NCBI GenBank assembly: GCA_036504215.1
Contig: DASXVO010000056.1
Span: 1-64,000 of the forward strand
From: Vicinamibacterales bacterium
Lineage (GTDB): Bacteria; Acidobacteriota; Vicinamibacteria; Vicinamibacterales; Fen-181
Reading direction: 5' to 3'
Length of the DNA: 64,000 nt
A model generated the notes under the pieces. The model searched no databases. It saw nothing but the letters and a program-made list of their open reading frames with translations, and was not told the origin of the DNA. The position numbers and the translations under genes were made by a program. Shown here in pieces: positions 23,785-64,000 of this stretch; position 1 is the stretch's first letter, and each line of letters begins with the position of its first letter.

Positions 23785-24798
23785 TCAGCGCGGGGCCCCG
23801 GCTGCCAACGCCTTCCTCAGGTCCGCGATGAGCAGCGGCGCGAGCGCGAGGGCGCCGTCCTTCGACAGGTGCGAGTTGGGGTTTCCGTACTTGCCGTCGA
23901 TGAAGTACGCGGGATCGGACAGGTGAAAACGTGTCGGGTCGTTGTAGTTGACGAAGACGCAGTTTCGGTAGCGCCTGGCCATCTCCCTGAACTCCGCGTC
24001 GAAGCGTTGCTGCTCGAAATCGGTCCGGTAGGTCGCAACGAAGTCCGGCAGTGCGGCGAGCATCACCGCCACGCCGTCGTGCTCGAGTTCCTGCAGCAGT
24101 TTGACGAGGTACACCCCTTCGGTTCCCGGGTACCGCGGAAAGGGAATCCGTTCGTACCGCGCGGGCGGCGGGTCGCCCCGGTCGCCGTTCCGCGGCATCG
24201 TGTTGCCCGTGTAGGTCTCCATGTCGCGGACGTAACGCTCGGGGTTGTACTCCGCATGGCGGGGGTTCGAGCGCTCCTGCAGGCGCTGGAGCGCGGTGAC
24301 GATCGCCCGGTCGTTCACCGATTTGTTCTGCAGCAGCAGCAACGGCCATCGCACGTTCGACGAAGACGCCGGACCGTCCGGACGGACACCGAATCGCTCG
24401 AGCGCCCACTTCTCCGACGTGATGTTGAAGATGAAGTAGTCCACCCCGTAAATCACGACGCGCGGCTTCCCGACGATCTGCTTGTAGCGTTTATAGAATT
24501 CGTAGTTGTACTGCGGTCCCTTGCCCTGGAAGGCCTCCTTGTACGCCCGTACCCCCACCCCGTCCACGATGTGGAGCGGGTGTATTCCCTCGAAGGTCCG
24601 TGACGTGCCGAGAATCAGAATCTGGTAGTCGGACTTTCCGTGAACGTCTTCGAGTTTCCTGCTGAGTTCCGACTGGCGCTCCGCTGACAGCGGCGTGCGC
24701 GCCAGGAGCGTCGTCAGCACCCGATCGAAGACGACGAGGCTCACCAGGAAGATGACGACCACGCCGACCCGCCGCAAAGGCCCGACCCTCGAAGCCAT
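23785..24798 (-). CDS. SGNH/DltD-like partner of an MBOAT acyltransferase
   Basis: The 337-residue product has one N-terminal membrane helix (VGVVVIFLVSLVVFDRVL) and an extracytoplasmic domain. The segment ILILGTSRTFEGIHP looks like the block I serine motif of SGNH hydrolase-like proteins. The C-terminal YFIDGKYGNPNSHLSKDG has the Asp and His expected of the last block. Such proteins accept or transfer acyl groups delivered across the membrane by an MBOAT protein, as in the DltB/DltD and AlgI/AlgJ systems. The MBOAT gene lies immediately upstream on the same strand with a gap of 12 bases. The acceptor is probably an exported glycan. It converges with the TIR gene, leaving six bases between the stops. 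Confidence 0.75.
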   Translation of the reverse strand: MASRVGPLRRVGVVVIFLVSLVVFDRVLTTLLARTPLSAERQSELSRKLEDVHGKSDYQILILGTSRTFEGIHPLHIVDGVGVRAYKEAFQGKGPQYNYEFYKRYKQIVGKPRVVIYGVDYFIFNITSEKWALERFGVRPDGPASSSNVRWPLLLLQNKSVNDRAIVTALQRLQERSNPRHAEYNPERYVRDMETYTGNTMPRNGDRGDPPPARYERIPFPRYPGTEGVYLVKLLQELEHDGVAVMLAALPDFVATYRTDFEQQRFDAEFREMARRYRNCVFVNYNDPTRFHLSDPAYFIDGKYGNPNSHLSKDGALALAPLLIADLRKALAAGAPR

Positions 24799-24810
24799 GT
24801 CTGATTCGTC

Positions 24811-26268
24811 CTAGAACTTGAAGTAGATGAACGCGTTGCTCGTGTCAACGGAGAACGCGATCAGGATGACGACGAACAGAGCGCAGCCCACTGCCTTCAC
24901 CTCGACGGGCACGCGTTCGAGAACAGTGAGTTCGTCCACGTGGCGCTGTACGTACTCGAGACCGAGCAGGATGCACACCAGCCCAAGGCTCAGGAACAGG
25001 TTCACCCGGCCGGCGTGCGGGAGCCTGAACTGCATGTACCGGAGATAGGTCCAGGCGTTCTCGAACGAGGTCGCGCGGAAGAGAATCCAGGCGAGCGTCA
25101 CCAGCTGGAACGTCAGGAAGATACTGATGGCCCGGTGCAGACGCGGCAGGCGGTTGAGCCGAATCGCCCGGACCACGCGGCGCCTGAGGCCTTTCGTGCC
25201 GAACGACGTGACGAGGAACACGCCGTGGAGTGCGCCCCAGGCCACGAACGTCCACGCCGCTCCGTGCCACAGGCCGCCGAGCAGCATCGTCACCGACATG
25301 CCGATCGCGTAGCTCCAACCCTCGACCGGAATCCGCAGCCATCGGTCGGCCTCGAACCGGCGCATCACGGCATACGCGATCGGCAGGAACAGGTAATCGC
25401 GCAGCCAACTCGACAGGGTGATGTGCCACCGCGTCCAGAACTGGCTGACGTCACGGCTCAGATACGGGTAATCGAAGTTCTTTGGCGCCGACAGGCCGAG
25501 CATTCGGGACACGCCCGTCGAGATGTCCGAGTAGCCCGAGAAATCACAGTAGATCTGGAAATAGTAGCAGTAGGCGCCCAGCAGGAGATGGAGGCCCTTG
25601 TACTTCGGCGCCAGGAAGACCTCGCCGACGTAGTAGGCCAGCCGGTCGGCAATCACCATCTTCTTGAACAGGCCCCACGCCACCAGCCGCCCGCCCGCCA
25701 GGAGCCGATCGAGATCGAACGCGACCGGCTGCCGCACCTGCGGCAGGAACTGTCCGGGGCGCTCGATCGGTCCCGCGAGGATCTGCGGGAAGAAAGCCAC
25801 GTAGAGCGCGAAGTAGCCGGCATGCCGCTCGACGGGCACCTTCCGGTGGTAGACGTCGAGGCTGTAGCTGACCAGCTTGAAGACATAGAAGGAGATGCCG
25901 ATCGGTGCCAGGATGCTCAGTGGTGCGATTGGCCTGGCCTGGAGCAGCGCGTTGCCAACCGACTGAATCGTCTCCCAGAACAGGTTCAGGTACTTGAAGA
26001 CGATCAACGCGCCGATCGGCACTCCGACGCAAACAGCCAGGAGGATCCGGCGCCGGCGTTTGGACTCCGTGCGCTCCATGAACCTGGCAGCCGTGTAGAC
26101 GACGGCCGTCAGGCCGATCAGGACGGCGGGGACGTCCAGGCCGAAGGTGCCGTAGAAGACGTAGCTCGCGGCCAGCAGGCACGCCCACCGGTAGCGGTGC
26201 GGCGTGATGTAGTACACGCCGACGACCGCCAGGCAGAACGCCCAGAAGCCAAGCGAGGTGAAAGACAT
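24811..26268 (-). CDS. MBOAT family O-acyltransferase (AlgI/DltB-like)
   Basis: The 485-residue multi-spanning protein has the family landmarks in order: FFPQILAGPIERP, QIYCDFSGYSDI, RWHITLSSWLRDYLFLP, and GLWHGAAWTFVAWGALHG with the catalytic histidine. The length is normal for AlgI-type proteins. It should move an acyl group, usually acetyl, across the inner membrane for addition to a polysaccharide or cell-wall polymer. The SGNH-like gene downstream would complete the transfer. No glycan synthesis genes lie next to the pair, so the target is unknown; the glycan locus at the right end of the window is one candidate. Confidence 0.92.
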   Translation of the reverse strand: MSFTSLGFWAFCLAVVGVYYITPHRYRWACLLAASYVFYGTFGLDVPAVLIGLTAVVYTAARFMERTESKRRRRILLAVCVGVPIGALIVFKYLNLFWETIQSVGNALLQARPIAPLSILAPIGISFYVFKLVSYSLDVYHRKVPVERHAGYFALYVAFFPQILAGPIERPGQFLPQVRQPVAFDLDRLLAGGRLVAWGLFKKMVIADRLAYYVGEVFLAPKYKGLHLLLGAYCYYFQIYCDFSGYSDISTGVSRMLGLSAPKNFDYPYLSRDVSQFWTRWHITLSSWLRDYLFLPIAYAVMRRFEADRWLRIPVEGWSYAIGMSVTMLLGGLWHGAAWTFVAWGALHGVFLVTSFGTKGLRRRVVRAIRLNRLPRLHRAISIFLTFQLVTLAWILFRATSFENAWTYLRYMQFRLPHAGRVNLFLSLGLVCILLGLEYVQRHVDELTVLERVPVEVKAVGCALFVVILIAFSVDTSNAFIYFKF

Positions 26269-52556: not shown

Positions 52557-54275
52557 CTAGCGCAGCTTGATGCCCGACTCGTTCGTCCCGCCAATCCAGG
52601 TCACCGTCGGGCTGTCCCAATACATCGAACGCTCGACGGCAATCGGCACCGCGTTGGTCGATTCGAGCATGGCACCGAACATCTCGCCGGAGGCCAGCCC
52701 CAGTTCGCGGGACATCACCGTCACGCGGGAGTTGGCCGCCACCGTCCGCTGGAGCACGATCGGCGGCTGATTGTCGCGCACCACCGTGATGGTCACCGTC
52801 GCGCCCTGGCTGTTCGGGTTGGCCATCACGATGAAGCTCAGCGTGTTGTAGGTGCCGCCGTCCTCACCCTCGGCCAGCGCCCACTTGGTGCCGAGTTCGG
52901 AGACGCCTGCCGAGTTGTGTCCCTCGTGCCACTGCCGGCCGGGCCAATACATCGACCGCTCGGCCACGACGGGCAGCGTGGAGGCGATCGAGGCGCTGAC
53001 GTCGGTGTTCCCGAGGCCGGGGACGTCGTTGACCCGGATGGTCGTCCGGCTTTCGGGCGCGAGTTGGTAGACCTGGGTGATGACGTCGCCCACCGGGCGG
53101 AGGTAGCGAATTGTCACCGCGGCCGCCGACAGGTTGGGGTTGGACAGGAGGATGTACTCGGTGAACACCGAGTCGGCGCGCCCTTCGGCGAGGAACCACT
53201 GCGTGGATGGGGCCTCGACGCCGGTGGAATCCGTGCCGCCCTTCCACCACTGGCTCTTCGTGCTGAAATACATCGACCGCTCGGCCACGATCGGCGCCGA
53301 GGCGTGCACGGTCATCGCGAATGCCTGGCTGCCGAGGCCCGGCACGTTGTTCGTGTAGATGGTCTGCCGGCGGTTTGCGGGCACCACGTAGACGTCGCGC
53401 AGTGTCTTGCCGCTGGCCAGGTAGTAGAGGACTTCGACGTTGACATCGGTCGCGTTGCCGTTGGCCAGCAGCAGGTAGGTGTCGAAGCCGTGAGCGTCGC
53501 CGTCCGCGAAGTACCACGAGGTCGAAGCCCTGGACACCGCCTTGCCGGTGTGGCCCGCGTTCATCTGCTTCGCGCCGCCCCAGGTCATCGTTCGCTCCAC
53601 CACGACGCCGCCGCGCTGGGTGGTGACTTCAGCCGACATCGACGTGTTCTCGAGGCCGGGGATCTCGTTCACGCGGATGGTGCGGCGGCTCAGGCCGGGA
53701 ATCGAGTACTTCTGGATGATCGGCGCGGCGCCCTGGCGGAGGAACTTGACGGTGACTTCGGCGGTGTCGATGCCGGGGTTCGCGATCGCGATGCGCGCCT
53801 TGAAGAAGCCGGTGCAGCCTTCGGCGAGGAACCAGGTGTTCGGAAGGGTCGGGTCGGTTCCCGCGGTGAACTCGTCCTGGTTGGTCACGCCGTCGCCATC
53901 GTCATCGGCTGCCATGTTCGTGATGCCGAAACGCGCCATCCACGCGCTCTCCGTCTCGCCCGACGGGCTGAGCCGCGGCATGGTGACCGCCACCTCGGCG
54001 GACATCGGGCTCGACAGGCCGTCGATGCTCGTCGCCTGCACCGCGAAGTAGTAGGTCTGTCCGGCCATGAGGTCGCTGACCGTCCGGGACGTCACGTTCC
54101 CAACCGCCGCGCTGGAGGTGTAGACACCCGACTGGGTGCCCCAGTACACCGTGTAGCCGGCGATGTCCGGTTCGGCGTTCGGATCCCAACTGATGGTCAC
54201 CGACCCGGCTTCCAATCGGCCGGCCAGCAGAACCAGGAGCGCGAGGAGGATATATGAGCGGGTAGTTTTGAACAT
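52557..54275 (-). CDS. Secreted FN3 protein with four DUF5719-like modules
   Basis: The 573-residue product has a signal peptide (ILLALLVLLAGRLEAG). A fibronectin type III domain spans about 24-100 (VTISWDPNAEPDIAGYTVYWG), and a calcium-type loop DDDGDGVTNQDEF lies at 124-136. Four modules of about 100 residues follow, opening TWFLAEG, SWYFADG, QWFLAEG and KWALAEG. Each closes with a VVERTMTW or VAERSMYW type segment and a following glycine-rich GG...G. This is the DUF5719-like pattern of secreted proteins. The same module occurs in the Wzy-like protein at the right edge of the window. The ATG at 54275 begins the signal peptide. It probably acts at the cell surface in glycan or matrix attachment; that role is inferred. 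Confidence 0.82.
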   Translation of the reverse strand: MFKTTRSYILLALLVLLAGRLEAGSVTISWDPNAEPDIAGYTVYWGTQSGVYTSSAAVGNVTSRTVSDLMAGQTYYFAVQATSIDGLSSPMSAEVAVTMPRLSPSGETESAWMARFGITNMAADDDGDGVTNQDEFTAGTDPTLPNTWFLAEGCTGFFKARIAIANPGIDTAEVTVKFLRQGAAPIIQKYSIPGLSRRTIRVNEIPGLENTSMSAEVTTQRGGVVVERTMTWGGAKQMNAGHTGKAVSRASTSWYFADGDAHGFDTYLLLANGNATDVNVEVLYYLASGKTLRDVYVVPANRRQTIYTNNVPGLGSQAFAMTVHASAPIVAERSMYFSTKSQWWKGGTDSTGVEAPSTQWFLAEGRADSVFTEYILLSNPNLSAAAVTIRYLRPVGDVITQVYQLAPESRTTIRVNDVPGLGNTDVSASIASTLPVVAERSMYWPGRQWHEGHNSAGVSELGTKWALAEGEDGGTYNTLSFIVMANPNSQGATVTITVVRDNQPPIVLQRTVAANSRVTVMSRELGLASGEMFGAMLESTNAVPIAVERSMYWDSPTVTWIGGTNESGIKLR

Positions 54276-54608: not shown

Positions 54609-55736
54609 ATGTCATCGGTTGTAACCAGGGTTCCTCTGCTCGATCTTCAGCCGCAGTACCTCCCGATTCGGGACGCGGTGCTGGCGGCCATCACGCGAGT
54701 CTGCGACAGTCAGCGGTTCATCATGGGGCCTGAGGTGGAAGGGCTCGAGCGCGAACTGGCGGAGATGCTCGGCGTTCGCGAGGCGATTGGTGTCTCGTCG
54801 GGGACCGACGCGTTGCTCGCCGCGATGATGGCGCTCGGCATCGGTGCGGGAGACGAGGTCATTACCAGCACCTATTCGTTCTTCGCGACGGCGGGCTGCA
54901 TCGTCCGGCTCGGTGCACGTCCCGTGCTCGTGGACATCGATCCGGTCACGTACAACATCGATCCCGTGGCGATGTCCGCGGCCCTGACGGCTCGGACGAA
55001 GGCGGTCATCCCGGTGCATCTCTACGGTTGCAGCGCGGACATGACCCCGATCCTCGAGGCGGCATCACGCGCCGGCGTGGCCGTGATCGAGGACGCCGCA
55101 CAGGCCATTGGCACGCGCTATCGCGGCAAGGCCGTGGGCGGGCTGGGGACGCTTGGCTGCTTCTCGTTCTTTCCGAGCAAGAACCTCGGCGCGTTCGGTG
55201 ACGGCGGGCTGGTGACAACCGACGACAGCGCCCTCGCGCACCGTGTGCGACTCGTGCGGAATCACGGGGCGGAGCCGAAGTACTACCACCAGTTCGTTGG
55301 CGCGAATTTCCGGCTGGATGCGCTCCAGGCTGCGGTTCTGCGGGTGAAGCTGCCGCACCTGGCGGCATGGACGGACGCACGTCGCCGGAATGCGGCGCGC
55401 TACCGGGAACTGCTGCAACCGCTCGCGAGCCAGGGCCGGCTCGTCCTTCCCGTGGAACCCGTGGGGCTCTTCCACATCTACAACCAGTTCGTGATCCGCG
55501 TGCAGGATCGCGACCTCGTGCGCGCCGCGCTCGACAAGCGCGGCATCGGCACCGAGGTCTACTACCCGGTGCCATTTCATCTGCAGGAGTGTTTTGCGTT
55601 CCTCGGGCACAAGAGGGGCGCCTTCCCGCAGGCCGAGGAGGCTGCCGACCACACGATGGCACTGCCGATCTACGGTGAGTTGACCGACGATCAGCTTCGT
55701 TACGTGGCCGCCTCGATCACCGACATCCTGAAGTAG
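54609..55736 (+). CDS. DegT/DnrJ/EryC1/StrS family aminotransferase
   Basis: The 375-residue PLP enzyme aminates a keto-sugar nucleotide for surface glycan synthesis. Landmarks are [48 protein letters not shown], the PLP-contacting [10 protein letters not shown], and the Schiff-base lysine in [14 protein letters not shown]. The length is typical. It opens the plus-strand part of the glycan locus, followed after 14 bases by a symporter gene. The exact sugar product cannot be named. Confidence 0.9.
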
Positions 55737-55750
55737 GAACACCAATAATC

Positions 55751-57037
55751 ATGGCCGTCCGAACCGCAGACATCACGCCGACCACGTCCCCGCGATCATC
55801 ATGGGTGCCGAGCACCACGACTCAGATCTTCATCGGCCTCGTCATTGGCATTGCGATCGGCATCGCCTGGCCCGGCAAGGAGGGATACGCGGCGCAGATC
55901 AAGCCGCTGGCCGACATGTTCCTGCGGATGATCAAGATGATCATCGCGCCGCTGCTGTTCTCGACGCTGGTGGTCGGGATTGCCGGCACGGGCGATCTCA
56001 AGGCGATGGGTCGCATCGGCCTGAAGGCGCTCATCTACTTCGAGGTGGCGACGACGATCGCGCTGTTCCTGGGGCTGGCGCTCGTGAACATCGTGCGGCC
56101 GGCGGCCGGGGTTCCCACCATCGGCACCGGGGCCGATCTGGCCGCCCTGGCGGCGCGGCCCCAGACCGCGTGGGAGATCCTGGTGCACCTCTTCCCGACG
56201 TCGGTCATCGACGCCATGGCCCGCGGTGACATCCTGCAGGTCGTGGTCTTCTCGATCTTCTTCGGCGTGGCGCTGGCGGCGGTCGGCGACAGAGGCCGTC
56301 CGGTCGTCGAGGTCCTCGACAGCACGGCCCAGGTGATGTTCACGTTCACCGGCTACGTCATGAAGTTCGCGCCGATTGGCGTCATGGCGGCCATCGCCGC
56401 CACCGTCGGCACGATGGGTCTGGGCATCCTCGTCACGCTCGGCAAGCTAATCCTCCTGATGTACGGCGGCCTCCTGATGTTCGCGCTCATCGTGGTCGGC
56501 GGAGTGTCGATCCTGATCCGGGTGCCGTTCTTCACGTTCGTTCGAGCGATCCGGGAACCCTTCCTCATCGCGTTCACGACGGCCAGTTCGGAGGCGGCGT
56601 TGCCCAAGGCGCTCGAGATCATGGAGCGCTTCGGCTGCCCAAAGAACATCGTCGGGCTGGTGCTTCCAACCGGGTACAGCTTCAACCTGGATGGAACCAC
56701 GCTCTATCTCTCGCTGGCCAGCGTGTTCGTCGCGCAACTGGCGGGTCTCGACATGTCGTTCGGCCAGCAGATTGTGATGATGTTGACGCTCATGCTGACG
56801 AGCAAGGGCGTGGCGGGCGTCCCGCGCGCCGCGCTCGTCGTGCTCACAGCCACGCTGACCTCTTTCAACCTTCCGATCCAGGGTGCGGCGATCCTGCTCG
56901 GCATCGACCAGATCATGGACATGGGCCGTACCGCGGTGAACGTGATGGGGAACTGCATCGCGACGGCCGTGGTGTCCCGCTGGGAGGGCGTGTTCGACGA
57001 CGCGAAGATGCGCGAGTTTGCGAGGAAGGCGGCGTAG
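55751..57037 (+). CDS. Dicarboxylate/amino acid:cation symporter
   Basis: The 428-residue product has eight predicted helices and two re-entrant loops of the DAACS family. The serine-rich loop reads FTTASSEAALPKALE, and the helix-7 motif GLVLPTGYSFNLDGTTLYLSLASVF resembles that of DctA and GltP. It takes up C4-dicarboxylates or acidic amino acids with Na+ or protons. Its place within a glycan locus has no obvious functional reason. Its stop is eight bases before the next gene. Confidence 0.92.
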   Translation: MAVRTADITPTTSPRSSWVPSTTTQIFIGLVIGIAIGIAWPGKEGYAAQIKPLADMFLRMIKMIIAPLLFSTLVVGIAGTGDLKAMGRIGLKALIYFEVATTIALFLGLALVNIVRPAAGVPTIGTGADLAALAARPQTAWEILVHLFPTSVIDAMARGDILQVVVFSIFFGVALAAVGDRGRPVVEVLDSTAQVMFTFTGYVMKFAPIGVMAAIAATVGTMGLGILVTLGKLILLMYGGLLMFALIVVGGVSILIRVPFFTFVRAIREPFLIAFTTASSEAALPKALEIMERFGCPKNIVGLVLPTGYSFNLDGTTLYLSLASVFVAQLAGLDMSFGQQIVMMLTLMLTSKGVAGVPRAALVVLTATLTSFNLPIQGAAILLGIDQIMDMGRTAVNVMGNCIATAVVSRWEGVFDDAKMREFARKAA

Positions 57038-57908: not shown

Positions 57909-58967
<1,059 letters not shown>

Positions 58968-58980
58968 CCCTCGCGCCTCA

Positions 58981-60516
58981 ATGACGCACGGAGCCGGTTC
59001 CGCCCATCGTCCGCCGACCCACGACGGCCCGTTGCTGGCGCGCAACGCGACGCTGAACCTCCTCGGCCAGGTGGCGCCCGCTCTGGCCGCTCTCGTCTCG
59101 CTGCCGGTGTTGGCGCGTCTCCATACGCGAGAGGTCCTCGGCCTCCTCACGCTCTCCTGGGTCATCGTGGGCTACTTCGGTCTCTTCGACCTCGGCCTCT
59201 CGCGGGCGCTGACCCAACTCGTCGCGGCCCGCCTCGGGGCCGGCCGGCGGGAACCGATCCCTGGGCTGATCTGGACGGCCTCCCTGTCTCTGGCCGGGGT
59301 CGGCGCGGCGGGGGGCCTGCTCATGCTGGCCTCGTCGAACTGGATCGTCACCTCGGCACTCCACATCTCGCCGCTCCTGGTGGGCGACGCCAGGCTCGCT
59401 GTCCAGTTGATCGCCGTATCGCTGCCGTTCGTCACGGTCTCGTCCGGGCTGCGCGGCGTGCTCGAGGCGTACCAACGCTTCGACTTGGTGTCGCTCGTGC
59501 GATCCCCGTCCAGCGGCCTGATGTATCTGGGTCCGGCGGCCGCCGCGATGTTCTCCCGGTCGCTGGCGCTCGCCGTCGCCGTGCTCGTCGTCGTTCGCAT
59601 CGCGGCGTGCGGGGCCTACGTGCTGTGCGCGCTTCGCGTCGAACCGGCGCTCCGCGACGGCATCCGGCCTTCGGCCAGCGGCTGGCGGGAACTGGCCGGC
59701 TCAGGGGCGTGGCTCATGGTGGCCAACATCGGAAGCTCGGCTCTCGGCTACGTCGATCGGCTCGTCGTGGGCGCGGTCGTTCCGGCCGCGGCGCTGGCGT
59801 ACTACGCGACGCCGCAGGAAGTGGTGACGAAAGTCCTGATCATTCCGGCGGCGATCAGTGGCGTGGTGTTTCCCGCGTTCAGCGCGGTTCCCGATTCGGA
59901 GCGCGACCGACTGGCGCGGTTGTTCGGTCGTTCGATCCGCTATTCGTTCCTGCTGCTGTTTCCCGTGACGCTGCTCATCGCGGCAGCCGCGCCCGAAGCC
60001 CTCACCCTGTGGGTGGGACGCGACTTTGCGGCGCAGGGGACCGTGCCGACGCAGTGGTTCTGTCTTGGCCTGCTGGCCAATGGACTGGCGTTGACCCCGT
60101 TCTCCTTCGTGCAGGCGCGTGGCGGCGCATCGACGGTTGCCTCTCTGCAGGTGTTGGAACTGCCGCTGTTCGTGGGCGCGATGTGGATGGTGACCGGTCG
60201 CTACGGTATCACCGGGGCGGCGGCCGTCTGGGCCCTTCGCGCGGCCGCCGATCTACTCATCCTCGCGATCGCGAGCCGCCTTCAGGTTCCCGAACTTCGT
60301 GGGATGGGGCGGAGTATCGCGGCCGGGTGTGTGGCGGTCCCGCTCGCCTTCCTCATCATCGGCGCGACAAGCCCGCTCACCGGTCGAATTGCGGCCGCGG
60401 CGACGGTATTGGGCGCCGTGGCCGTCGTGGCCATCGTGACCGCCGACCGCATGGAGCGGGACTGGGTCCACGGTGTGTGGTGCCGCGTGCGCGGGTTCGG
60501 ACGGAGTCCGCGATGA
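58981..60516 (+). CDS. Wzx-like polysaccharide flippase
   Basis: The 511-residue product has about 14 hydrophobic helices and begins with the typical NATLNLLGQVAPALAALVSLPVLARLH segment of the polysaccharide transport (MATE-like) family. It should flip lipid-linked repeat units to the periplasm for a Wzy polymerase. The start is 13 bases after gmd. Its stop overlaps the glycosyltransferase start (ATGA). Confidence 0.88.
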   Translation: MTHGAGSAHRPPTHDGPLLARNATLNLLGQVAPALAALVSLPVLARLHTREVLGLLTLSWVIVGYFGLFDLGLSRALTQLVAARLGAGRREPIPGLIWTASLSLAGVGAAGGLLMLASSNWIVTSALHISPLLVGDARLAVQLIAVSLPFVTVSSGLRGVLEAYQRFDLVSLVRSPSSGLMYLGPAAAAMFSRSLALAVAVLVVVRIAACGAYVLCALRVEPALRDGIRPSASGWRELAGSGAWLMVANIGSSALGYVDRLVVGAVVPAAALAYYATPQEVVTKVLIIPAAISGVVFPAFSAVPDSERDRLARLFGRSIRYSFLLLFPVTLLIAAAAPEALTLWVGRDFAAQGTVPTQWFCLGLLANGLALTPFSFVQARGGASTVASLQVLELPLFVGAMWMVTGRYGITGAAAVWALRAAADLLILAIASRLQVPELRGMGRSIAAGCVAVPLAFLIIGATSPLTGRIAAAATVLGAVAVVAIVTADRMERDWVHGVWCRVRGFGRSPR

Positions 60517-61493
60517 CGCCGTCGCTCGACATCGTCATCGTCAACTGGAACACCGGGAGACAACTGCGGGCTTGTCTCGATTCGATTGTGCGGACCAGCC
60601 GCCTGGGATATGTGCTGCGCCGGGTCATCGTGGTGGACAACGCGTCGAGCGATGGATCGTGTGACAGTCTGGAAGCGGAGGACCTGCCGCTTGTTGCGGT
60701 GCGCAACCTGACGAATCGAGGGTTCGCGGCCGCGTGCAATCAGGGCGCGCGCGGCTCGGACGCCGACTACCTGCTGTTTCTCAACCCGGATGTCGTGCTG
60801 TTCGAGCGCTCGCTCGAACGGCCACTGGCGTTTCTGGAGACATCGGCGGCCGGTCACGCCGGGATCTGCGGGATTCGACTGATCGACGAAGCCGGCACCC
60901 CCTGCATGTCGGCCGCGCGGTTTCCGTCTGCCAAGAGCTTCCTCATCGACGCGCTCGGCCTCTCGCGCTCGTGGCCGCGCCGGTTTCCGCCGACGATGCT
61001 GTGCCCCGACGAGAACGTCGGCTTACTGGAAGTCGATCAGGTGATCGGCGCGTTCTTCCTGATTCGCAGGCACCTGTTCGTGCAACTCGAGGGCTTCGAC
61101 GAGCGCTTCTTCGTGTACTTCGAGGAACTCGATCTCTCACTTCGCGCCCGAAGGCTTGGGCACTCCTCCTGGGTGCTCACCGATGTGGCGGCGCGCCATC
61201 TGGGCGGGTTGTCCACGGGCCAGGTTCGCGCGAAACGGCTCTTCTATTCGCTGCGCAGCCGGCTGGTCTACGCGTCGAAACACTACAGCCGGGCGGGCCG
61301 TGCCCTGGTGACGGTGGCGACCGTCCTGGAACTGGGCCCGAGGTTGCTGCGCGCCGCGCTCCGCGCATCGGCCCGCGAGGCGCGGGAGACGCTCGTTGCC
61401 TATTGGTGGCTGGCGCCCGCCCTGGTCGCCTCGGCCTCACGGCGCGATGCATCCGGTCCGACCTCTCCTCGATCCGACGCGCCGGGTGGTTGA
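60513..61493 (+). CDS. Family 2 glycosyltransferase
   Basis: The 326-residue product begins LDIVIVNWNTGRQLRACLDSI and VIVVDNASSDGS, the GT-A nucleotide-sugar site. DYLLFLNPDVVLF contains the metal-binding region. FDERFFVYFEELDLSLRAR resembles rhamnosyltransferase-type enzymes of the WbbL group. It is cytoplasmic and probably adds a sugar such as rhamnose to the lipid-linked unit. The ATG overlaps the flippase stop. Its last 31 codons overlap, on the opposite strand, the end of the Wzy-like gene. Confidence 0.88.
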   Translation: MTPSLDIVIVNWNTGRQLRACLDSIVRTSRLGYVLRRVIVVDNASSDGSCDSLEAEDLPLVAVRNLTNRGFAAACNQGARGSDADYLLFLNPDVVLFERSLERPLAFLETSAAGHAGICGIRLIDEAGTPCMSAARFPSAKSFLIDALGLSRSWPRRFPPTMLCPDENVGLLEVDQVIGAFFLIRRHLFVQLEGFDERFFVYFEELDLSLRARRLGHSSWVLTDVAARHLGGLSTGQVRAKRLFYSLRSRLVYASKHYSRAGRALVTVATVLELGPRLLRAALRASAREARETLVAYWWLAPALVASASRRDASGPTSPRSDAPGG

Positions 61494-64000
61494 CGCGCGC
61501 CGGCCGGCTCGAGGAACGCGTTCGCACACACGACGTAGAAGGGCAGGAACGCGACGAACCTGAATGACATGAGTGGCTGGAATCCGATCTCGAAGGCGGT
61601 GGTCACGAACCAGAGCCAGACAGCCGTCCGGCGGCTGCGGAGGTTCGTCCACAGGAATGCCAGCAGTCCTCCATAGATGCACGCGACCGCCGGGAACCCG
61701 CCCCGGAGCAGCGTGAGCACGATGCCGCAGTCCCCGAAGTAGAGCAGGTCGGAGTAGGCGAATCCGATGGGCGACAGGGGATGCTTGGCGATGAACGCGA
61801 CGTCGCCAGCCAGCAGCCCATCTGCACCGAATCTCGCCCCGAACCCGCTCATGCGGTCGCCGACGAACAGCCCGCGGAGGACCACCAACGCCGAGTGCTG
61901 GCCTCCCAGCGCATGGACGGCGGCGAAGACCATGACCGCCGCCGTGATCGCTGCCAACGGGACACGGATCCGCGGCATCTTCTGCGCGGCCGCCCAGAGG
62001 ACCTGCGGAACGGCCACGAGGAGAAACAAGCTGGACGTCGTGGAACTGACGGCAGCCAGGAGTGCCACGTAGGCCGCGGCGAGCGCGAGCCACCGCAGTT
62101 TCGGCTCGGCCCGGTACTGCAGCAGTGCGAGATAGAAGAGCAGGTAGTACATGAAACCAGCGAGCGAGTGCGTCGCGAAGATGCCCACCGGTTTCCCGAG
62201 CATGAACATGCCAGGAAGCAGGGCGCTGTAGTACTGCGTATAGAACAGGATCAAGAAATCGCTGATCAGTCGCACCTTGAACAGGAGCCCGAACCCGATG
62301 GCGATCGTGAGCGAGTGAACGATCGCGAGCACCATCGGACCGCTGCCCTCCAACCGCACCCGGCGCAGGTCCAGGCACAGCGTCAACGCGAGCGCCAGGA
62401 AGATGAACGGGACGCCCGGGCTGACCGTTGGTAGCGGCGTGAAGACAGTAGCCGTCGTCAGGAGGGCCATCAACACGAGCGAGTTGACGACCAGCGCGCG
62501 GCCGGCCAGCATGGCTGGCAGGGCCGCCAGCAGGCCCAGCAGCGTGGCCGTGCCGACGAGCGACAAGATCGTCAGCCACCGTGATGCCGACCCGCCGACC
62601 GAACTGGGGGAATAGAAGGCCACGAGCGCCAGGGTCAGAACTACCCCGAGACCCATGCGGCCGGCGCGGGCAGTGTCGATCCAGCGCGACGGGATGAGTT
62701 GTACTGCCCGATCGCGGCGTGTTCGCCGGGTGGCCCACCACATCATGATGGCGGCCAGGAGCCAGGCCAGCACGTTCACGACGGGACCGATACGGATCAA
62801 GCCGTCTTGCCGGTCCGGCCGCCGAGGCACCACCGAGGGGACCTCGACCCGCCTCGTCCATCGAATGCCGGGTGTCACGCGACCACCCCAACGGATCGCG
62901 CCTGCCTCCCAGTAGACGACCGACTCCGCCACGAACGGGACGGGCTCCGCGCCGACCGTTCCCGCGATCGACTCGAGGAACGCGGTGAACCGGCGCTCCC
63001 TGGCCGCGGGCGGCACGAAGCCGGCGGCCAACGTTCTCCGCGAGAACGGGGGAACGTTGGCCACGACCGTTCGCGCTCCAGCGCCGTCGTCGAAGATGAA
63101 TGTTCCGCGGATCGACAGGCGTTCGGACGTCGGGTTCAGCACGGGGAAGAACAGCTGGAGACCGGGTTGGGTCGATGTCGTGCTGAACGCCCACCTCATC
63201 GACGTTTCACGGACGCCGGTGCCGACATGGCCACCCTCCCAGTTCGAGACGGTCCAATCCGCCGGGTCATTCGGTTTCCGTCCCCATTGGAACACCCGCG
63301 TCACGGTGACCGGCACGCCGTTGCCGCTGCGGACCGTGGTCGCGAACAGATGGTTGTCCATCGATTGGTTGGAGCCGGCCCGGATGATTACGCGCGAACG
63401 GGGCCCGACCGGAAACCACCGGTTGACATCGTACGGATCCGGGCGCGTGATGATTGGTCGGCCGCGTTCGATGTAGTACCTCAGTTGCACGTTCGCCGAT
63501 CGAACGTCGCTCGGATTGGTGATGATGAAGTAGGTCTCCTGTTCGTCCGGGGCCATCGACCGTACGGAGCCCATCGCGAAGTACCACTCGAGGGCGGGCT
63601 CCGGTGGGGGCGGCTCGGGGATCGCCTGCCGGGCGCTGGCCCACGCGTTGCGTGTCCACGGCCAGAAACTGGTTCGTTCCGCGTGGACGAGGACATCGGA
63701 CTCGATGTCGATGGCGAACGGGCGGCTGGCGAACTCAGACGTGTCGATATCCCAGGTCCTGCACCCCATGGGCAGATCGGCGCGCGTCCGCGGCGCGATG
63801 TTCACGAGCAGGGCCTTCTCGAACGCCGGCTCGTGGAGCGTTCGCAGGCGGACGCGCACGTGTGCCATGCCATCGGTGGGGTTGATGAGCTGTACCGCCT
63901 CGCCAGAGACAGTCGAGGGCCTCCTGCCGAGAACCGAACCGAGCGGTGTGGCATCGAGCCACCTCGGGCCCAGCGCCGCGAGCAGCAGGTTGACGGACGT
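61400..64000 (-). CDS. Wzy-like polymerase with DUF5719-like extracytoplasmic modules (partial)
   Basis: The visible 866 residues run off the right edge of the window, so the start is not seen. The frame is open through the last base. The N-terminal half has two complete modules like those of the FN3 protein (EWYFAMG...YFIITNPS...VFQWG, and RWAFSTT...FFPVLNPT...ESVVYWEAGAIRWGG) and the end of a third (INPTDG...VHAERTSFWPW). The C-terminal half has about eleven membrane helices. The stretch SPIGFAYSDLLYFGDCGIV resembles the late periplasmic loop of O-antigen polymerases. A surface-glycan polymerase is likely, with modules that may bind the polymer. It converges with the glycosyltransferase gene over 94 bases. 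Confidence 0.75.
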   Translation of the reverse strand, partial: TSVNLLLAALGPRWLDATPLGSVLGRRPSTVSGEAVQLINPTDGMAHVRVRLRTLHEPAFEKALLVNIAPRTRADLPMGCRTWDIDTSEFASRPFAIDIESDVLVHAERTSFWPWTRNAWASARQAIPEPPPPEPALEWYFAMGSVRSMAPDEQETYFIITNPSDVRSANVQLRYYIERGRPIITRPDPYDVNRWFPVGPRSRVIIRAGSNQSMDNHLFATTVRSGNGVPVTVTRVFQWGRKPNDPADWTVSNWEGGHVGTGVRETSMRWAFSTTSTQPGLQLFFPVLNPTSERLSIRGTFIFDDGAGARTVVANVPPFSRRTLAAGFVPPAARERRFTAFLESIAGTVGAEPVPFVAESVVYWEAGAIRWGGRVTPGIRWTRRVEVPSVVPRRPDRQDGLIRIGPVVNVLAWLLAAIMMWWATRRTRRDRAVQLIPSRWIDTARAGRMGLGVVLTLALVAFYSPSSVGGSASRWLTILSLVGTATLLGLLAALPAMLAGRALVVNSLVLMALLTTATVFTPLPTVSPGVPFIFLALALTLCLDLRRVRLEGSGPMVLAIVHSLTIAIGFGLLFKVRLISDFLILFYTQYYSALLPGMFMLGKPVGIFATHSLAGFMYYLLFYLALLQYRAEPKLRWLALAAAYVALLAAVSSTTSSLFLLVAVPQVLWAAAQKMPRIRVPLAAITAAVMVFAAVHALGGQHSALVVLRGLFVGDRMSGFGARFGADGLLAGDVAFIAKHPLSPIGFAYSDLLYFGDCGIVLTLLRGGFPAVACIYGGLLAFLWTNLRSRRTAVWLWFVTTAFEIGFQPLMSFRFVAFLPFYVVCANAFLEPAGARQPPGASDRGEVGPDASRREAEATRAGASHQ

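Follow-up and report, generated by a model that had tools for sequence, protein, structure and literature searches.

The stretch analysed here, referred to as the window, comprises bases 1-64000 of a 122,434-base contig (C56; DASXVO010000056.1) from a Vicinamibacterales genome of 5.92 Mb in 90 contigs (G000). As shown in Table 1, a glycan locus occupies its right-hand part, and two proteins of this locus are considered in particular: W, a fused polymerase-like protein at the right edge, and S, a secreted protein with an FN3 domain. The complete open reading frame of W covers contig positions 61400-64471 on the minus strand and encodes 1023 aa, with the gene start at 64471 outside the window. 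W consists of a putative Sec signal peptide (residues ~20-39, upstream of module 1 and ending in ASA before a Q, as read from the sequence), four modules within residues 40-545, one added transmembrane (TM) helix (TM0), and a polytopic core of ~390 aa; the membrane half is intact and free of frameshifts. The initial annotation had recognised at least two and a half modules in this protein; the modules are indeed present, but their true number is four, because the window cuts the gene and module 1 lies beyond its edge. The fusion is also present in two independent assemblies of the same genus, complete in one and truncated in the other where the contig stops; an assembly artefact as its source is thereby ruled out.

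Table 1. Features of the glycan locus in contig coordinates (identical to window positions up to base 64000)
Feature	Position	Strand	Basis or remark
Ligase-like second polytopic glycan enzyme, 660 aa	50560..52542	+	PF04932 Wzy_C, HN motif
S, secreted: signal peptide, FN3, TSP3-like, four ASRAH modules	52557..54275	-	HMM, structure model
S module 4	52560..52889	-	module HMM
S module 3	52890..53204	-	module HMM
S module 2	53205..53522	-	module HMM, structure match
S module 1	53523..53840	-	module HMM
DegT/DnrJ/EryC1 sugar aminotransferase	54609..55736	+	Pfam
GDP-mannose 4,6-dehydratase-like sugar nucleotide enzyme	57972..58967	+	recognised by eye
Wzx-type flippase	58981..60516	+	Pfam Polysacc_synt_3
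GT2-type glycosyltransferase	60513..61493	+	recognised by eye; 3' end overlaps W by 94 bp
W, part inside window	61400..64000	-	residues 158-1023
W core, Wzy/WaaL superfamily	61502..62659	-	residues 605-990; has stand-alone homologues of ~400 aa in polysaccharide loci
TM0, added TM helix of W	62738..62803	-	residues 557-578, then TRRTRRDR
W module 4	62852..63199	-	ASRAH, 35.5 bits; position-4 profile fits best
W module 3	63203..63607	-	ASRAH, 47 bits; structural match to TM1070/ASRT
W module 2	63617..64000	-	ASRAH, moderate score
W module 1	64007..64354 (outside window)	-	residues ~40-155; degenerate

Stand-alone relatives of the core start, in the alignment, almost exactly at W residue ~603, which indicates that an ordinary stand-alone enzyme acquired, at its cytoplasmic start, a signal peptide, the array and a single TM helix. 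TM0 would thus act as an out-to-in adaptor between the periplasmic array and the cytoplasmic start of the core, restoring its topology. Such stand-alone cores are present in another four genomes of the order and, outside it, in Flavobacterium, Sphingobacterium, Chitinophaga and Neisseria. Of 162 genomes surveyed within the order, 7 have the core as such, and so do 4 in an overlapping phylum-wide sample of 396; the fused form is confined in these surveys to three genomes, all of one genus.

At the sequence level, the modules of W and S are homologous. BLASTP of one against the other gave 66.6 bits (E 2e-15, two-sequence comparison) in tandem register, and a module hidden Markov model (HMM), for which 24 modules were taken from S, SGNH and transglutaminase-like proteins but none from W, scored 117.6 bits on W residues 40-550 (E 1.7e-38), where the best of 2000 shuffles reached 6.5 bits. 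One extracytoplasmic module common to both proteins, as the initial annotation had claimed, is thus confirmed, and S holds exactly four copies by the HMM, the number given there. The landmark residues it listed are also real, the strictest being an Asn, an Arg and a Trp: across 75 tetrads, that is, arrays of four modules, Asn and Arg are 100% conserved at all four positions and Trp at positions 2-4, and W retains Asn and Arg in all four modules and Trp in modules 1, 3 and 4.

The fold of the module was obtained from VIA-align and a profile search, as the Foldseek list for the S model was filled by FN3 chains. The S modules are all-beta in the structure model, with a predicted local distance difference test (pLDDT) value near 80, and match TM1070 (1nc7; Z 14.3, root mean square deviation (rmsd) 2.5/107) and ASRT, the Anabaena sensory rhodopsin transducer (2iia; Z 12.9, rmsd 1.3/84); module 3 of W, from a lower-confidence model, matches 1nc7 with Z 7.7 and 2ii7 with Z 7.0, so that the same TM1070/ASRT-type fold is predicted for both proteins. 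The module profile likewise found 1nc7 (E 1.3e-4) and 2ii7 (E 0.0045) as its best matches among PDB sequences. The module is therefore the known ASRT/ASRAH beta-sandwich and is not new. As for the earlier description of it as DUF5719-like, 9 of 28 relatives do match DUF5719 (PF18986; best 5.5e-14) and 4 of 28 match PF07100 ASRT (best 2.1e-6), but S and W themselves give no match to the curated DUF5719 model at E up to 1. That one set of homologous tetrads matches either PF18986 or PF07100 suggests that the two Pfam families belong together.

The ASRAH domain was named by De Souza, Iyer and Aravind in 2009, with a Trp at the start of strand 1 and an Asn at the end of strand 2 as hallmarks; its members are predicted to bind sugars, secreted versions occur as dyads or tetrads, and one fusion to a glycosyltransferase was described, from Frankia (PMC2739507). 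The modules studied here agree with this superfamily (PF07100, including DUF5719, PF18986) in the beta-sandwich, the Trp and Asn hallmarks, the secreted tetrads, the glycosyltransferase gene context and the predicted sugar binding; they differ in their partner, since those described are amidases, lipoproteins and the one Frankia glycosyltransferase, and PMC2739507 describes no fusion with a polytopic glycan polymerase.

Across the order the tetrad behaves as a unit. Leaving the W family aside, exactly four modules were counted in 74 of 75 complete module proteins, and two in the remaining one; any other departure from four comes from a protein truncated where the fetched stretch or the contig stops. 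Each position has its own signature, by which 298 of 300 modules fall into their own position (not cross-validated). It has been reported that ASRT and TM1070 are tetramers (PMC2739507), and the crystal structure of the ASRT homologue shows a homotetramer; the array may thus plausibly be the covalent form of such a tetramer. In several genomes of the order tetrad proteins are numerous and highly diverse, the module count being almost always four. The tetrads stand mostly at the C-terminal end of varied secreted proteins (propellers, subtilase, FN3, TIG), so that the tetrad looks like a general surface-attachment device, and they are joined to a polytopic membrane protein only in the W family. 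A 2011-aa candidate for a second such fusion, with five hydrophobic stretches, proved to be a secreted beta-rich protein and hence a false positive.

The membrane half had been called Wzy-like, and this agrees with the structural comparison. In the AlphaFold model, made with ten alignment rows, the core mostly has pLDDT 75-95; by VIA-align it matches the O-antigen ligase WaaL (7tpg) with Z 16.4 over 333 residues at 12% identity, far above the next matches, FtsW (8p1u, Z 9.2) and RodA (8tj3, Z 8.0). The W core is thus an enzyme of the Wzy/WaaL superfamily, within the wider Wzy/WaaL/SEDS group. VIA-align was needed for this assignment, as Foldseek with the whole W model gave no match at E 0.001; the core profile had no match among PDB sequences, no Pfam family, PF04932 included, matches the W core or its relatives, and NCBIfam gave none for W. 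Because Wzy sequences are highly variable (PMC12004945, PMC12502699), a missing match to curated Wzy models is weak evidence.

Within the superfamily, W is most likely a polymerase rather than a ligase. The locus holds a Wzx flippase together with sugar-nucleotide and glycosyltransferase genes, as a Wzy locus does, and the setting is the same in relatives. Stand-alone cores lie beside or near Wzx in all loci checked, directly beside it in Neisseria and Flavobacterium, where the core is the only polytopic enzyme of its kind beside Wzx within the fetched stretch and so occupies the place of Wzy. W might instead be a ligase or O-oligosaccharyltransferase whose tetrad recognises the glycan or the acceptor, with the 660-aa PF04932 protein as the polymerase: its best structural match is a ligase, and with two superfamily enzymes in the locus one may be the polymerase and the other the ligase. 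We consider this assignment possible, though rather unlikely, since the stand-alone relatives of Neisseria and Flavobacterium sit where Wzy would, PF04932 does not match the W core family, and the HN motif of the Wzy_C region is found in the 660-aa neighbour, the W core family having D[SC]G..RG at that place. The presence of a second superfamily member with the HN motif, together with the Wzy-like place of the stand-alone relatives, points with moderate confidence to W as the polymerase and its neighbour as the ligase.

Compared with the O-antigen and capsule polymerases of the Wzy type, W shares a polytopic core of ~400 aa, adjoining Wzx and Wzz genes in relatives and, in several members, a GN1-like RX(n)GXG motif; it differs in that its core has neither a PF04932 match nor the HN motif, and in its ~510-residue N-terminal periplasmic array with an extra TM helix. 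Similarly, W shares its overall fold with WaaL but lacks the HN motif of the PF04932 region, and its array has no counterpart in the aligned WaaL chain. A 2025 review of Wzy names no such array domain (PMC12004945), and no precedent for a Wzy with a carbohydrate-binding fusion was found by title and abstract, subscription papers being outside this literature search. The fused architecture is new and built from known parts.

The favoured explanation, which we hold with about even confidence, is that W is the Wzy-type polymerase of the locus and carries its own periplasmic glycan-binding device. The signal peptide would export the four-module ASRAH array, probably a covalent counterpart of the ASRT/TM1070 tetramer, and the added TM helix would return the chain to the cytoplasm, so that the polymerase core could keep its normal N-in orientation. 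With the array exported and the core N-in, the array would sit over the periplasmic face where lipid-linked repeats are joined, most likely holding the nascent chain or the incoming repeats and so affecting processivity or length. Outside the cell, this glycan or one like it would be bound by S and, in relatives, by an SGNH hydrolase, each through a tetrad of the same type. Binding of the polymer by the module, one of two functions that the initial annotation had suggested, fits the published prediction of sugar binding for ASRAH (PMC2739507).

Several points weigh against this explanation. Sugar binding by the module rests on the published prediction (PMC2739507), the best structural match of the core is a ligase, the W model has low confidence in the module region (mean pLDDT 59 for the whole protein), and the W fusion is one evolutionary event in one genus. 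The array branches of W are long in the tree, its module 1 has degenerated, and in G001 the middle of module 2 is lost; the array may therefore be drifting, or may fall short of a complete tetramer. In addition, the co-occurrence statistics for tetrad and core given below ignore phylogeny.

A rival reading makes the fused tetrad no more than a passenger: a widespread secreted domain that came to the polymerase by chance and has little effect on it. Tetrads do occur on many unrelated secreted proteins of the order, and that of W is fast evolving and eroded in modules 1-2; we nevertheless regard the passenger reading as unlikely. The tetrad is kept in three genomes, and the ratio of nonsynonymous to synonymous substitution rates (dN/dS) between G001 and G002 is 0.35 for W modules 3-4, close to 0.37 for the core and 0.40 for Wzx (S modules, 0.29), from which it follows that the membrane-proximal modules are kept by purifying selection; moreover, the invariant Asn and Arg are retained in all four modules. 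In another family, tetrad genes that are not fused also occur close to the stand-alone core: two Luteitalea-type genomes encode, within a few kb of it, a secreted transglutaminase-like protein (recognised by eye) with a C-terminal ASRAH tetrad (L037:13344-17198 and L038:4772-8557). Co-location of tetrad and core is therefore recurrent, the core being stand-alone there. The tetrad is present in 17 of 162 genomes of the order, and at the genus level in 3 of 4 core genera versus 7 of 86 genera (p 0.0013, no phylogenetic correction).

Meanwhile, the distribution of the chain-length regulator Wzz (PF02706) raises a special case of the favoured explanation, in which the covalent sugar-binding tetrad is a clamp replacing the Wzz of the ancestral stand-alone enzyme and W is a polymerase with a built-in co-polymerase. 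Wzz lies beside the stand-alone core in G048, G040 and G064 and is present in the stand-alone core loci of Flavobacterium, three Neisseria and, weakly, Chitinophaga, that is, in most such loci, and it was not found on the two long contigs (122 kb and 102 kb) that carry the fusion. It has been reported that WzyE sits inside a Wzz octamer, which encloses its periplasmic side (PMC10030265), and a large array there would take the same place. The likeness is an analogy only, a periplasmic mass held above the polymerase; Wzz is a separate protein forming octamers, and no sequence relation between it and the W array, or anything else relating the ASRAH module to Wzz, was found here. As the fusion is a single event (n = 1), and as Wzz genes on other contigs of G000 and G001 could act in trans, such a replacement, though attractive, is doubtful.

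How Wzy enzymes hold and measure the growing chain is unsettled, mainly since the enzyme and its regulator are two distinct membrane proteins, both fragile. Where a soluble tetrad with predicted sugar binding is part of the polymerase itself, it would give an experimental handle on chain holding and length, and the present data suggest, without proving it, that W has a built-in means of gripping the chain as it grows. The ASRT/DUF5719 modules, of which some Acidobacteriota have many per genome, would likewise gain a candidate ligand, the surface polysaccharide of the cell itself.

The other function suggested for the shared module was that S docks on the synthesis machinery, in molecular terms by tetrad-tetrad contacts with W. 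ASRT and TM1070 are tetrameric (PMC2739507), and the only tetrads in G000 are those of S and W, encoded within 10 kb. Each tetrad, however, already has its four modules and is complete in itself; S occupies its usual site also in G003 and G004 (L090 and L089), where W and the ligase-like gene were not found (genomes 91% and 77% complete); and in the tree the W tetrad groups not with that of S but with that of an SGNH hydrolase (support 100/98). Docking is thus unsupported, very improbable and the least supported of the readings considered. The same tree rejects a derivation of the W modules from S, with some caution for the long W branches. The SGNH hydrolase, with an N-terminal tetrad, adjoins S in G001 and G002; the copy of G001 (L034:1534-4578) is a secreted SGNH/GDSL hydrolase with an N-terminal ASRAH tetrad and three TIG domains.

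The site of S, marked by an smpB-like gene, the DegT gene and a symporter gene, did not vary among the five genomes examined in this genus, as far as their contigs cover it, and the ligase-like gene is inserted at this site only in genomes also carrying W. The symporter gene (window 55751-57037), recognised by eye as dicarboxylate symporter-like, is located within the glycan locus and keeps this place throughout the genus. Elsewhere in the genome, a glucose/sorbosone dehydrogenase-like protein (L041:85-1770, G000:C43) has a single, incomplete module at its end and so departs from the usual four. In the window, outside the part listed in Table 1, a gene pair resembling MBOAT/AlgI (23785-26268, recognised by eye) may serve polysaccharide O-acetylation.

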